In this document: positions 15,663-20,333 of the stretch, piece after piece | Position numbering within the stretch: position 1 is the stretch's first letter | Layout of the letters: each line of letters starts with the position of its first letter | DNA from: Rhodobacterales bacterium LSUCC0031 | GTDB lineage: Bacteria > Pseudomonadota > Alphaproteobacteria > Rhodobacterales > Rhodobacteraceae | Reading direction: 5' to 3' | NCBI GenBank assembly: GCA_015689735.1 | Contig: WVSP01000004.1 | Span: forward strand, 186,001-250,000 | Length of the DNA: 64,000 nucleotides | Program-made: the position numbers and the translations under genes | The notes under the pieces: generated by a model | Databases searched by the model: none | Told to the model about the DNA's origin: nothing | Seen by the model: the letters and a program-made list of their open reading frames with translations, nothing else

Positions 15663-16136
15663 ATGGCCAAGGGTAACGACAACAAGAACTACAAGGTGAT
15701 CGCCGAGAACCGGCGCGCGCGCTTCGATTACGCCATCGAGGAAGACCTCGAGGTTGGCATCGTCTTGCAGGGCTCGGAGGTCAAAAGTCTGCGTCAAGGT
15801 GCGGCCAATATCGCCGAAAGCTATGCCGCCGTCGAAGAAGGTGAGCTGTGGCTGGTGAATTGCTACATCGCGCCCTATGCGCAGGCCAAGACTTGGGGCC
15901 ATGAGGAACGCCGCCGCCGCAAGATGCTGGCCAGCAAGCGGGAATTGTCGCGGATGTGGAACGCGACCCAGCGTCAAGGCATGACGCTGGTACCGATCGT
16001 GATGTATTTCAACGACAAGGGCTTTGTGAAGCTCAAGCTTGGGATCGCCAAGGGCAAGAAGCTCGCCGACAAGCGCGAGACCAGTGCAGAGCGTGATTGG
16101 AACCGGCAGAAACAGCGGCTGTTGAAGCAGCATTAA
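15663..16136 (+). CDS. smpB: SsrA-binding protein SmpB
   Basis: SmpB binds tmRNA and delivers it to stalled ribosomes for trans-translation. The 157-residue protein shows [20 protein letters not shown] at 6-25, [15 protein letters not shown] near 35-50, and a lysine-rich tail, with [18 protein letters not shown] then [13 protein letters not shown], which inserts into the mRNA channel. ATG 15663 follows trmO by 18 bp. The tmRNA gene itself is not visible here. A second rescue factor, arfB, lies about 3.8 kb downstream. Confidence 0.97.
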
Positions 16137-17741: not shown

Positions 17742-18917
17742 ATGTTCGAAACAGTAAACCCGCCGGAACTGGACAAGATCATCCGCCTGATGGGCATGTT
17801 CGCCGCCGACCCGCGCGAGGGTAAGGTCGATCTGGGCGTGGGCGTCTATCGCTCGCCCGAAGGCAAGACGCCGGTGATGGCCGCCGTCAAAGAGGCCGAG
17901 CATCGGATCTGGGCCGCGCAGGACAGCAAGACCTATGTCGGGCTGCGCGGCGATCTTGGGTTTCTTGACGCGATGCGCCGCCTGCTCTTTGGCGAGAGTG
18001 TCGCGCCCATCCGGGTGGCCGCCGCCGGCACGCCGGGGGGCACGGGGGCGGTGCGGCAAGTGCTGGAGACCGTACATCGGCTGAACCCCCAAGCCACCGT
18101 CTGGATCAGCGATCCGACATGGCCGAACCACCCTGCGATCATCGATCATCTGGGGCAGAGGCGGCAAAGCTATCGCTACTATGACGCAAGCACCGGCGGC
18201 ATCGACCGCGACGGTATGCTGGCCGATCTGGCGGGGGCGGGCCGGGGCGATCTGATCTTGCTGCATGGCTGTTGCCACAACCCGACCGGCGCCGATCTGT
18301 TGCCCGATGATTGGCAAAAGATCGCGGCGATTTGCGCGCGCACAGGCGCGATTCCCTTCGTGGACATGGCCTATCAGGGCTTTGGGCTGGGGCTGGACGA
18401 AGATGCGGCAGGCCTGCGGCTATTGGCGGAGAGCCTGCCCGAGGTGCTGATCGCGGCCAGTTGTTCCAAGAATTTCGGCCTTTACCGTGAGCGTGTGGGC
18501 GTGGTGCTGATCGTGACCGAAGGCAAGGCCGCGGCCGAGGGCGTCTTGGCGGGCATGAACCGGCAGAATTTCGCCTTTCCGCCCGATCATGGCGCGCGGG
18601 TGGTACAGGAAATCCTTGGAGATGAGGCACTTGGCGCGCTTTGGCGGGGTGAGTTGGAGGGAATGCGCCGCGCGATGGAGAGTAATCGCCGCGCATTGGC
18701 CGAGGCGTTGCGGGTCGAAACAGGATCGGACCGCTTCGGCTTTTTGGCCGGGCATCAGGGGATGTTCTCGCTGATCGGGGCCACGCCCGCGCAGGTGGAC
18801 CGCTTGCGCGAGGACCATGGCATCTATCTCGTAGGCGATGGGCGGATGAATGTCGCGGGGTTGACGCCCGAGACCATCCCGCGTGTGGCGCGCGCCTTGG
18901 CCGAGGTGCTTGCCTGA
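17742..18917 (+). CDS. Aromatic amino acid aminotransferase (class I, TyrB/AspC type)
   Basis: A PLP-dependent aminotransferase of fold type I, 391 residues from ATG 17742. LGVGVYRSPEGKTPVM at 31-46 is the substrate-specificity segment of the TyrB/AspC subgroup. The PLP pocket includes GTPGGTGAV near 97-105, WISDPTWPNH at 121-130, HGCCHNPTGADL at 175-186, FVDMAYQGFG at 206-215, the Schiff-base Lys243 in ASCSKNFGLYRERVG, and the substrate Arg near the C-terminus. It most likely transaminates phenylalanine, tyrosine or aspartate with 2-oxoglutarate. The 82 bp after it lead into the preQ1 riboswitch. Confidence 0.92.
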   Translation: MFETVNPPELDKIIRLMGMFAADPREGKVDLGVGVYRSPEGKTPVMAAVKEAEHRIWAAQDSKTYVGLRGDLGFLDAMRRLLFGESVAPIRVAAAGTPGGTGAVRQVLETVHRLNPQATVWISDPTWPNHPAIIDHLGQRRQSYRYYDASTGGIDRDGMLADLAGAGRGDLILLHGCCHNPTGADLLPDDWQKIAAICARTGAIPFVDMAYQGFGLGLDEDAAGLRLLAESLPEVLIAASCSKNFGLYRERVGVVLIVTEGKAAAEGVLAGMNRQNFAFPPDHGARVVQEILGDEALGALWRGELEGMRRAMESNRRALAEALRVETGSDRFGFLAGHQGMFSLIGATPAQVDRLREDHGIYLVGDGRMNVAGLTPETIPRVARALAEVLA

Positions 18918-18962
18918 GCGCGCGATGAGGTATAGGAGGCGGCCGTCCGCGATGGGCGCGGG

Positions 18963-18993
18963 CCAAGTCTCCGACTACCTTGTAAAAACGGAT
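18963..18993 (+). promoter_or_regulatory. preQ1-I riboswitch controlling yhhQ
   Basis: Stem CAAG (18964-18967) / CTTG (18979-18982) encloses the 11-base loop TCTCCGACTAC, followed by the A-rich tail TAAAAACGGA (18983-18992). Loop TCCG (18970-18973) can pair with tail CGGA (18989-18992) to form the H-type pseudoknot of class I preQ1 aptamers. The Bacillus aptamer has the same order, with loop UUCUAGCUACA and tail AUAAAAAACUAA; here the pseudoknot pairs have changed together while the CUAC and A-tract stay. CGGA is also the only purine-rich ribosome site 7 bases before the yhhQ ATG, so ligand would block translation. Confidence 0.75.
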
Positions 18994-18999
18994 TATATC

Positions 19000-19623
19000 A
19001 TGAATTCAAAGTACTTGCCGGGTATACTGGCGATGGCTGCCGTTGTCGTGGCCTCAAATATCCTTGTGCAGTTCCTGTTCGGGAACTGGCTGACTTGGGG
19101 GGCGTTTACCTATCCGCTCGCCTTTCTGATCACCGATATCATGAACCGGGTTTACGGCGTGCAAGCCGCGCGGCGCGTTGTTTTCGCAGGCTTTTTGGTC
19201 GGAGTAGCTTGCTCGTTGATCGGCACGCAGATCATGGGCGAGTTCGGACCGCTGGTGACGCTCAGGATCGCACTGGGATCGGGGATCGCCTTCCTAACCG
19301 CGCAGCTGTTGGATGTGGCGATTTTCGACCGGCTGCGCAATGGCGGGTGGTGGCAAGCGCCTGTTTTGTCAAGCATTATTGGATCTTCTGTCGATACGGC
19401 GCTGTTCTTTTCCATCGCCTTTTCGGGGGCGTTGTCCTTCCTCGAGCCGGGCAATGATGTGTCTTGGGCGGGCGAGGTTTTGCCGATCTTGGGCGTGAGG
19501 CCGATGGCGCCCTTGTGGGTCTCGCTCGCGGTGGCCGATTGGGGGGTGAAGCTGGCGATCGCCCTGATCGCGCTGATCCCGTTCCGGATCATCACGCGCA
19601 AAATGATGGCACAGGTGGTATAA
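19000..19623 (+). CDS. yhhQ: Queuosine precursor transporter (YhhQ family)
   Basis: A 207-residue inner-membrane protein with about six hydrophobic segments, typical of the YhhQ/DUF165 vitamin-transporter-like family that imports preQ0/preQ1. Motifs include TWGAFTYPLAFLITDIMNRVYG (about residues 30-51; the P-x-x-F-x-x-T/S-D-x-x-N is characteristic), ARRVVFAGF near 54, VSSIIGSSVDTALFFSIAF (about 128-145) and VADWGVKLAIALIALIPFRI near the end. ATG 19000 starts the family N-terminus MNSKYLPGILAM. The preQ1-I riboswitch directly upstream supports the substrate assignment independently. Confidence 0.93.
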   Translation: MNSKYLPGILAMAAVVVASNILVQFLFGNWLTWGAFTYPLAFLITDIMNRVYGVQAARRVVFAGFLVGVACSLIGTQIMGEFGPLVTLRIALGSGIAFLTAQLLDVAIFDRLRNGGWWQAPVLSSIIGSSVDTALFFSIAFSGALSFLEPGNDVSWAGEVLPILGVRPMAPLWVSLAVADWGVKLAIALIALIPFRIITRKMMAQVV

Positions 19624-19677
19624 AAGGTTTTGACAACCGCAAAATCTGTGTCAGGCTGGGGTTAACGGCAACCCATT

Positions 19678-19750
19678 GAAAGGAGGTGATCCAGTGGTCA
19701 GAGAAGCATTGGAGAATGATAACGGGACAGCTTGGGAGGTGCGCCTCTAA
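19678..19750 (+). CDS. 18-codon ORF with an extended perfect Shine-Dalgarno, in the leader upstream of arfB
   Basis: GTG 19694 to TAA 19748-19750 encodes VVREALENDNGTAWEVRL, 18 residues. The feature start includes its ribosome site: GAAAGGAGGTGATCC (19678-19692) is complementary over 15 bases to the 3' end of 16S rRNA, far longer than any other site seen in the window, with a 7-base spacing to the GTG. I do not recognise the peptide. It lies between yhhQ and arfB and is followed by mutually exclusive stems and an intrinsic terminator. It may be a leader peptide, a small protein, or part of an sRNA. Confidence 0.5.
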
Positions 19751-19821
19751 GGCAGCCCTTGGGGGTTTTCGCCCCTCCCAGGTGGGATTTCCTAACCGAT
19801 ATCCACCTCCTGATTTCTCGA
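19733..19821 (+). promoter_or_regulatory. Competing RNA stems containing an anti-Shine-Dalgarno
   Basis: TGGGAGG (19733-19739, inside the small ORF) can pair with CCTCCCA (19774-19780). AGGTGG (19780-19785) can pair with CCACCT (19803-19808). The same CACCTCCT (19804-19811) is also the exact complement of the small ORF's AGGAGGTG (19681-19688) and matches the anti-Shine-Dalgarno of 16S rRNA. These pairings exclude one another, so ribosome occupancy of the small ORF could choose the fold before the terminator at 19822. This is read from complementarity only. Confidence 0.45.
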
Positions 19822-19848
19822 AAGGGTCGCCGCAAGGCGGCCCTTTTT
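19822..19848 (+). terminator. Strong intrinsic terminator upstream of arfB
   Basis: AAGGGTCGCC (19822-19831), GCAA loop, GGCGGCCCTT (19836-19845) gives a 10-bp stem, with one G-T pair, followed directly by T residues. It ends any transcript from yhhQ or the small ORF 66 bases before the arfB ATG. Whether it is constitutive or conditional on the preceding stems is not known. Confidence 0.85.
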
Positions 19849-19870
19849 CGTTGGGTCGGCCGGTCACAGC

Positions 19871-19900
19871 GCGTACACAGGGCGTACACACCCCGTACAT
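19871..19900 (+). promoter_or_regulatory. Three helically phased GTACA repeats upstream of arfB
   Basis: GTACA occurs at 19873, 19884 and 19895, exactly 11 bp apart, in the context GCGTACACAGG / GCGTACACACC / CCGTACATATG. The array lies between the terminator and the arfB ATG at 19914. Spacing of one helical turn is typical of cooperative protein binding on one DNA face, but the short tandem repeat could also be chance or a slippage product. Confidence 0.4.
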
Positions 19901-19913
19901 ATGCGTGGCCCCC

Positions 19914-20333
19914 ATGCCCCTGACGATCAACGACCGCATCACCATCGCCGATTGGGAGCTGACCGAGCAGTTTGTCCGCGCCTCCGGCCCCGGCGGGCAG
20001 AATGTGAACAAGGTGTCAACGGCGGTGGAACTGCGGTTCGAGGCGGCGCGCTCGCCCCATCTGCCCGACCCGGTGAAGCGGCGGCTGGAACGGCTGGCGG
20101 GGCGGCGCTGGACCAAGGATGGCGCGGTGGTGATCCAGGTGGAGGAGACGCGCAGCCAAGCCCAGAACCGCGAGATCGCGCGGGAGCGGTTGGCCGAACT
20201 GATCCGCGCGGCGCTGGTGGTGCCGAAACCCCGGCGGCCGACACGACCCACCAAGGGGTCGGTCGAGCGGCGCATCAAGGCGAAGAAGGTGCGCGGGGAC
20301 GTGAAGGCGGGGCGGGGGAAGGTGGAGGAGTGA
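19914..20333 (+). CDS. arfB: Alternative ribosome-rescue factor B (peptidyl-tRNA hydrolase YaeJ)
   Basis: ArfB enters the A site of ribosomes stalled without a stop codon and hydrolyses the peptidyl-tRNA. ATG 19914 gives 139 residues, the family size. The catalytic GGQ motif is at residues 27-29 in RASGPGGQNVNKVSTAVELR, and the C-terminus is the basic tail needed for ribosome binding (KPRRPTRPTKGSVERRIKAK). It lacks the decoding domains of RF1/RF2. Just upstream are a terminator, the structured small-ORF leader and three phased repeats, so its expression may be conditional, which fits a backup to SmpB/tmRNA. Confidence 0.95.
   Translation: MPLTINDRITIADWELTEQFVRASGPGGQNVNKVSTAVELRFEAARSPHLPDPVKRRLERLAGRRWTKDGAVVIQVEETRSQAQNREIARERLAELIRAALVVPKPRRPTRPTKGSVERRIKAKKVRGDVKAGRGKVEE

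Follow-up and report, generated by a model that had tools for sequence, protein, structure and literature searches.

A small RNA gene with an extended Shine-Dalgarno sequence, most likely free-standing, upstream of arfB

Comparative analysis of the window (the whole 64,000-nucleotide stretch of DNA, to which all positions refer) indicated that the element lying upstream of arfB is most likely a free-standing small RNA gene of many Alphaproteobacteria and not an arfB switch. We are highly confident of the anatomy and the autonomy of this element. The fuller reading, that of an autonomous gene, present in single copy, whose short translated RNA is a divergent relative of CC2171, docks onto 30S subunits, and refolds, is favored with slightly better than even confidence. 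The first-pass annotation had taken the element for a leader of arfB and had named an independent small RNA or small protein gene as the alternative. It is the alternative that fits better: the element has a conserved promoter-like place and its own terminator, and it looks independent of arfB.

Table 1. Features of the element and of its neighbors in the window.
Feature	Position	Strand	Description
Upstream neighbor, queuosine precursor transporter family (Vut_1)	18883-19623 (start unrefined)	+	TIGR00697 above cut-off; outside the element
Promoter-like place (predicted)	-35 TTGACA 19630-19635; -10 about 19652-19658	+	predicted from sequence
Extended Shine-Dalgarno (SD) GAAAGGAGGTGATCC	19678-19692	+	complement of the single-stranded 16S tail
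Start-codon hairpin, Rhodobacteraceae form	19690-19713	+	19690-19696 with 19707-19713
18-codon ORF, translation VVREALENDNGTAWEVRL	19694-19750	+	GTG start 19694-19696; TAA stop 19748-19750
P1 long-range helix, 5' strand GAGAAG (codons 3-5)	19701-19706	+	class-wide helix; present in the SD-blocked fold
SD partner CACCTCCT (RNA CACCUCCU)	19804-19811	+	free fold: pairing with 19681-19688; conservation limited to Rhodobacteraceae
P1 3' strand UUUCUC	19814-19819	+	immediately 5' of the terminator; class-wide helix; SD-blocked fold
Intrinsic terminator	19821-19848	+	11-bp stem with one G-U, GCAA loop, T-run
Downstream neighbor arfB	19914-20333	+	NCBIfam ArfB equivalog, 193 bits vs. cut-off of 100; outside the element

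Every feature described in the first-pass annotation was found in its place. The GCAA-loop hairpin of the terminator is real, with a stem of 11 bp (19821-19831 with 19836-19846, followed by TTTTT) instead of the 10 bp reported, and the distance of 66 bases between the terminator and arfB was confirmed. An AGGTGG motif lies at 19780-19785, and folding of the region 19624-19913 gave z = -4.28. Among family loci, 108 of 134 have their best TTG hexamer 47-50 bases 5' of the SD, and among class loci 40 of 62 have it 47-51 bases 5' of the SD. TTGAC was present in 104 of 134 family loci vs. 23 of 133 control stretches, the controls being longer. We infer a transcription start near 19664 and an RNA of about 185 nt.

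The element is widespread in the family and in the class. A plain DNA search gave matches in 28 of 61 relatives; at two loci (L029 and L030) only the terminator part was matched. Among 295 family genomes, sampled as one per genus, the pattern GAAAGGAGGTGNTYCRGTG occurred in 179 with no control matches, and the covariance model R1, built on the first 80 positions with the SD included, matched 250 (221 of 260 good assemblies), a second match being present in one genome only (G221). Of 385 class genomes, 53 carried the pattern GAAAGGAGGTGNTYCRRTG, which had no control matches. In the phylum sample, the stricter pattern GAAAGGAGGTGRTCCRRTGTC, which the window itself does not fit, was present in 44 of the 86 alphaproteobacteria and in none of the 213 other genomes, the split being our own count of rows. 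In the named-genome scan, 76 of the 80 matches listed bore alphaproteobacterial names, three were labeled Proteobacteria, and one Gemmatimonadota. The last one, a metagenome-assembled genome (L236), carries the SD pattern and a 21-codon frame; chance, contamination, or transfer may be the source of this copy.

Judged by base-pairing across the loci, the long-range helix P1, in which codons 2-6 pair with the strand immediately preceding the terminator and which shows compensatory changes, is the predicted structural core shared across the class. In 48 class loci (62 loci minus six duplicates gave 56, of which eight were dropped for lack of a terminator) the early codons paired with their own pre-terminator strand at -17.5 kcal/mol vs. 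-11.9 kcal/mol with exchanged strands (permutation p 5e-5), and 19 of the 48 single loci beat 95% of the exchanged partners. The larger set, in which 91 of 108 loci were scored (17 dropped, a few Rhodobacteraceae included), gave a P1 helix score of 15.35 for own and 12.12 for exchanged strands, p being at most 2e-4. A further count took the 58 loci that have TCN CAN next to the start codon; in 42 of them a purine-rich stretch following [AG]TG served as the anchor. In these 42, 279 of 294 P1 cells were paired (best of 500 shuffles: 266), but for observed and shuffled strands alike the anchor itself presupposes pairs 1 and 2 and, in part, pair 3. Pair 4, free of the anchor, appeared as U-A in 28 loci, G-C in eight, C-G in two, and A-U in one, i.e., in all four Watson-Crick forms. 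The tree-based covariation test, run with 30 simulated alignments, yielded no pair below E = 0.33; this best value belonged to codon 4 with the P1 strand (GC 93, AT 29), and a clade signal followed close behind.

The second structure, the start-codon hairpin, is a feature of the Rhodobacteraceae and was not seen in the same form across the class. At least eight of its nine pairs were present in 126 of 134 family loci. In 43 thinned rows, 92.2% of the cells were paired vs. 38-50% for slid partners, none of 500 shuffles being as high, and six cells were changed on both sides (0 of 500 shuffles). Two of the five measures, the count of doubly changed pairs and that of pair types, were not above the shuffles (220 and 251 of 500).

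An ordinary base-pairing sRNA with mRNA targets, its ORF and long SD contributing to stability or being secondary, is an unlikely description of the element. It would agree with the predicted short transcript unit closed by a terminator, with the type (sRNA) assigned to CC2171 in Rfam, and with a conserved CCTAAC that could be a seed, but the most conserved stretch is the 16S-tail match, and no interior 6-mer was found in more than 33 of 108 loci, the top 6-mers being mostly P1 or terminator strands.

The 18-codon GTG ORF noticed at the outset is under selection as a frame. After setting aside one of the 135 family loci (L058, with a 26-codon frame and neither neighbor gene), the ORF was found to have exactly 18 codons in 128 of 134. 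Codon 19 was TGA in 65 loci, TAG in 42, and TAA in 21, with other codons in six; TGG was never found vs. 21.3 cases expected under free mixing of A and G. As the loci are related, a probability calculated from independent draws would be too small; in a thinned set of 45 loci there were 43 stops at codon 19 and no TGG. A premature in-frame stop occurred in one of 134 family loci; the alternative frames had such stops in 62 and 73. The start-codon frame of the class loci comprised 18-30 codons in 48 of 56 distinct loci vs. 3 and 10 in the other frames. With the call resting on the selection on frame and stop, we regard the ORF as very probably translated.

The selection on the peptide is another matter. 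Mean entropy at codon positions 1, 2, and 3 amounted to 0.84, 0.92, and 0.89 bits, and such equal variability does not demonstrate a selected peptide, selected though the frame is. At some residues the codon itself is fixed, more tightly than the amino acid requires: AGA in 117 of 117 loci with Arg at codon 3, ACA in 121 of 121 with Thr, and TTG in 114 of 120 with Leu. Codon 5 has a purine-pyrimidine-purine form in at least 109 of 128 loci, the form that it needs to pair with the start codon. A small-protein gene, acting through its peptide and using the RNA structure just to adjust translation, seems improbable too. The selected frame and stop and the V.R..LE.GVGT pattern common to most family loci speak for it, as do the class ORFs, mostly 18-30 codons long, three of which (L067, L079, and L080) have 54-57 codons and a start that resembles a signal peptide by eye. 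On the other side, between orders the peptides (VSHCH- types in Caulobacterales, Methylobacterium, and Bosea, MSHGS- in Sphingomonadales, MSSD/E- in other groups, VSRxxLExGVGT in Rhodobacteraceae) share little but the usual V/M-S start, and the codon-level constraints listed above lie outside the amino acid sequence.

The SD itself is unusually long. The 15-base complementarity of GAAAGGAGGTGATCC to the 16S rRNA 3' end was confirmed, and it grows to 17 bases when A19693 and G19694 are included. The spacing of 7 bases to the start codon, as first described, holds from GGAGG to GTG, but the full 16S match stops one base short of GTG. The alphaproteobacterial 16S tail, CTGGATCACCTCCTTTCT, was read directly in two fetched genomes; the search for the 16S 3' end covered 20 genomes and found it in these two, the window's own 16S end not being among the finds. 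A 40-base 16S end used as the query matched 309 plasmid records, and among the 25 of 309 matches listed, alphaproteobacterial going by recognized names, all 40 bases were covered at 97.5% identity, with one mismatch somewhere in the 40. The 14-mer AAAGGAGGTGATCC occurs once in the window with up to two mismatches allowed (0.36 expected), and that occurrence is exact; with up to one mismatch it is found twice in the 3.0-Mb genome, exact only at the locus described here. Since the element is conserved in relatives, a chance origin of the 16S match is untenable. Most of the aligned family loci were found via the SD pattern, so the invariance of the SD in the alignments is partly built in. Relatives detected by other means also retain the SD fully or almost fully: of six covariance-model matches that the pattern had missed and that were fetched, five retain AAGGAGGTGATCCAG and one has GAAAGGAGGTGACCCAG, while in two loci from the plain DNA search (L026 and L027) the SD end after GGAGGTG is altered.

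The SD complement pointed out by the first-pass annotation was confirmed as well, and its pairing is conserved within the Rhodobacteraceae. In 105 of 112 anchored loci, all seven bases of the consensus CNYCUCC could pair with GGAGGUG, vs. 9.1% in shuffles, counted within 30 bases 5' of the anchor, with 22 of 134 loci left unanchored. Thus, both the 18-codon ORF and the SD pairing, proposed initially as a check of conservation in this family, turned out to be kept. Over the whole 3' region, the SD duplex energy had a mean z of -1.81 and exceeded all 60 shuffles in 17% of loci. At the class level, the lock on the SD was absent (15 of 48 loci vs. 10.8 expected).

The free minimum-energy fold of the window element has the SD paired with its partner and the start codon in the hairpin, and P1 is absent. 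When positions 19678-19694 were blocked, the predicted fold contained P1 with 6 bp, one of them G-U. The initial suggestion that the fold changes with the state of the ribosome is thus borne out as a predicted change upon occupation of the SD by the 16S tail. The calculated energy of the SD-tail duplex, 29.7 kcal/mol, compares with a cost of 8.9 kcal/mol for blocking 19678-19694, both values referring to isolated RNA. We also considered the freed anti-SD as the output of the switch and dropped this idea, since CUCCU (19807-19811) re-pairs in the SD-blocked fold with 19708 and 19711-19714 (codons 5-7).

Small RNAs with CCUCC (anti-SD) loops occur in alphaproteobacteria. The element could act as a sponge for them, given that the class-conserved fold leaves GGAGGUG unpaired and in principle able to capture CACCUCC or CCUCC loops, but the complementarity spans the whole 16S tail, well past CCUCC, and we consider this role very improbable.

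The gene context was analyzed in 135 family loci. Both neighbors were present in 103 of them, the transporter gene only in 20, arfB only in nine, and neither in three, so that the transporter gene precedes the element in 123 loci and arfB follows it on the same strand in 112, with the match starting 180-354 bases past the SD in 110; one family stretch ends 488 bases after the SD. The synteny with arfB, which the first-pass annotation had wished to see conserved, therefore exists in the family, but arfB or the transporter gene was found beside the element in none of the 62 class loci (56 distinct; three with less than 330 bases downstream) within the fetched flanks. The fetched stretch lacked arfB in 23 of the 135 family loci, and 21 such genomes were searched together with a control (G087) that has arfB adjacent. 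A displaced arfB was present in 20 of the 21: on another contig in seven, on the same contig at least 12 kb away in five, and in the remaining eight in the same orientation about 1.5-5 kb downstream, separated from the element by other DNA. In one genome (G150), arfB was not found by the search. As the element persists where arfB is displaced or absent, on these data the gene looks autonomous and the arfB synteny inherited; the link with arfB looks positional.

The scenario proposed at first, a cis-acting leader in which the fold, and with it read-through into arfB, is governed by translation of the ORF or by the supply of free 30S subunits, draws on the proximity of the terminator to arfB, on the frequent adjacency of element and arfB in the family, and on the eight further genomes with arfB about 1.5-5 kb downstream, but must be judged very improbable in view of the class loci, of the 12 of 20 genomes in which the element persists with arfB on another contig or at least 12 kb away, and of the element having its own terminator and no antiterminator recognized by eye. 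The stretch GGCAGCCC is similar to the 3' strand of the terminator but looks constant in the consensus by eye.

Several other observations concern the surroundings of the element. A frame of 215 amino acids runs from GTG 19686 through arfB, and its first 75 residues matched no Pfam family. The gap between the terminator and arfB contains an imperfect 11-base tandem repeat of 3.2 copies (19865-19899), and similar TGTACG-rich stretches are also present in relatives. The window carries smpB at 15663-16136 (+ strand; NCBIfam equivalog, 210 bits), about 3.8 kb upstream of arfB, which places two ribosome-rescue genes near each other. In a Hyphomonadaceae locus beyond the 62 (L263), arfB is divergent and lies about 175 bases upstream of the element. 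An alpha tmRNA gene is located about 1.2 kb from the CC2171 copy of one class locus (L075). A general link with ribosome rescue was rejected, as ARAGORN, applied to 129 other loci (stretches of up to 8 kb), detected no further tmRNA.

For the free-standing RNA gene we propose a 30S-gated mechanism, modeled on the predicted folds; it is the function we consider likeliest, though held tentatively, with less than even confidence. The RNA would dock 30S subunits via the entire 16S tail. In the Rhodobacteraceae, docking would open the lock (SD with CNYCUCC, start codon in the hairpin) and let P1 form, and a ribosome translating the ORF would next have to unwind P1. The conformation of the RNA, and hence its lifetime or its partners, would depend on free 30S subunits and on initiation, and the RNA would work in trans or while bound to 30S subunits instead of as an arfB leader. 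In a more specific version, which we hold to be rather doubtful, the RNA, one per genome, reads out free 30S subunits by flipping from the locked to the open state on binding, is reset by translation of a peptide of no fixed sequence, and so reports or buffers ribosome availability.

The finding extends a little-studied Rfam sRNA family to relatives across a bacterial class, normally one per genome, and gives it mRNA features: a selected frame, a structurally selected start region, and an SD that matches the 16S tail in full. Were the 30S-gated mechanism true, the RNA would be a direct sensor or buffer of free small subunits; to our knowledge, few bacterial sensors of this kind have been described. 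Even without 30S gating, the extent of the family, the ORF, and the structure make it an unexplained conserved RNA that is testable in model strains.

The first-pass annotation knew of no described system with this layout, but a homologous RNA, CC2171 (RF01867), is already in Rfam; its name probably goes back to Landt et al. in 2008. The window matched the full model (1-159) with 31.5 bits (E 3.4e-5) vs. a gathering score of 75, and this match is the sole one in its genome (E 7.8e-5). Being full-length but below the gathering score, the window is called a divergent relative and not a certified member of RF01867. The genome scan with RF01867 matched 15 of 58 genomes, one above the cut-off, and among 14 controls only Caulobacter vibrioides. 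By cmscan, 15 of 40 class loci reached the gathering score, four of 20 in the first batch (L063-L082) and 11 of 20 in the second, which was partly hand-picked; these 15 loci were found via the SD pattern and carry the ORF.

The window shares with CC2171 the 5' block GAAAGGAGGUGAUCCAGUGUC and the pairing of the start region with the pre-terminator strand, formed in the window only with the SD blocked. It reads GUGGUC vs. the CC2171 consensus GUGUC, and most relatives have S (GUGUC) at codon 2. It differs from CC2171 in the sequence of P1, in the 18-codon peptide of the VxRxxLExGVGT type, and in the extra lock on the SD. In the literature searched, with partial coverage, no description of a function, an ORF, or a 16S match of CC2171 was found, nor anything relevant under the SD and peptide strings; term searches of two Caulobacter sRNA papers returned nothing on this RNA. 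According to the Rfam 15 paper, R-scape gave RF01867 one additional covarying pair, and a single RF01867 candidate is listed in a survey of Mesorhizobium huakuii. Two earlier Caulobacter ncRNAs were reported as translated and most ncRNA regions as untranslated by Schrader et al. 2014 (PMC4117421).

Three other kinds of systems resemble the element in part. The dual-function sRNAs, e.g., SgrS/SgrT and RNAIII, contain a small ORF, and like them the element is a short, regulatory-type RNA with a putatively translated frame; Pos19 of Rhodobacter sphaeroides reportedly belongs to this group. Unlike in these sRNAs, the peptide varies between orders, and the SD complements the whole 16S tail. The attenuator leader peptides of the trpL type combine a short ORF, alternative pairing, and a terminator, as does the element, but no conserved downstream gene was seen outside the family and no antiterminator was recognized. 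Finally, the extended SD motifs of Staphylococcus aureus, presented as a general feature of initiation (PMC13009471), also join long SD-anti-SD pairing to small ORFs, whereas the element described here occupies one locus per genome.
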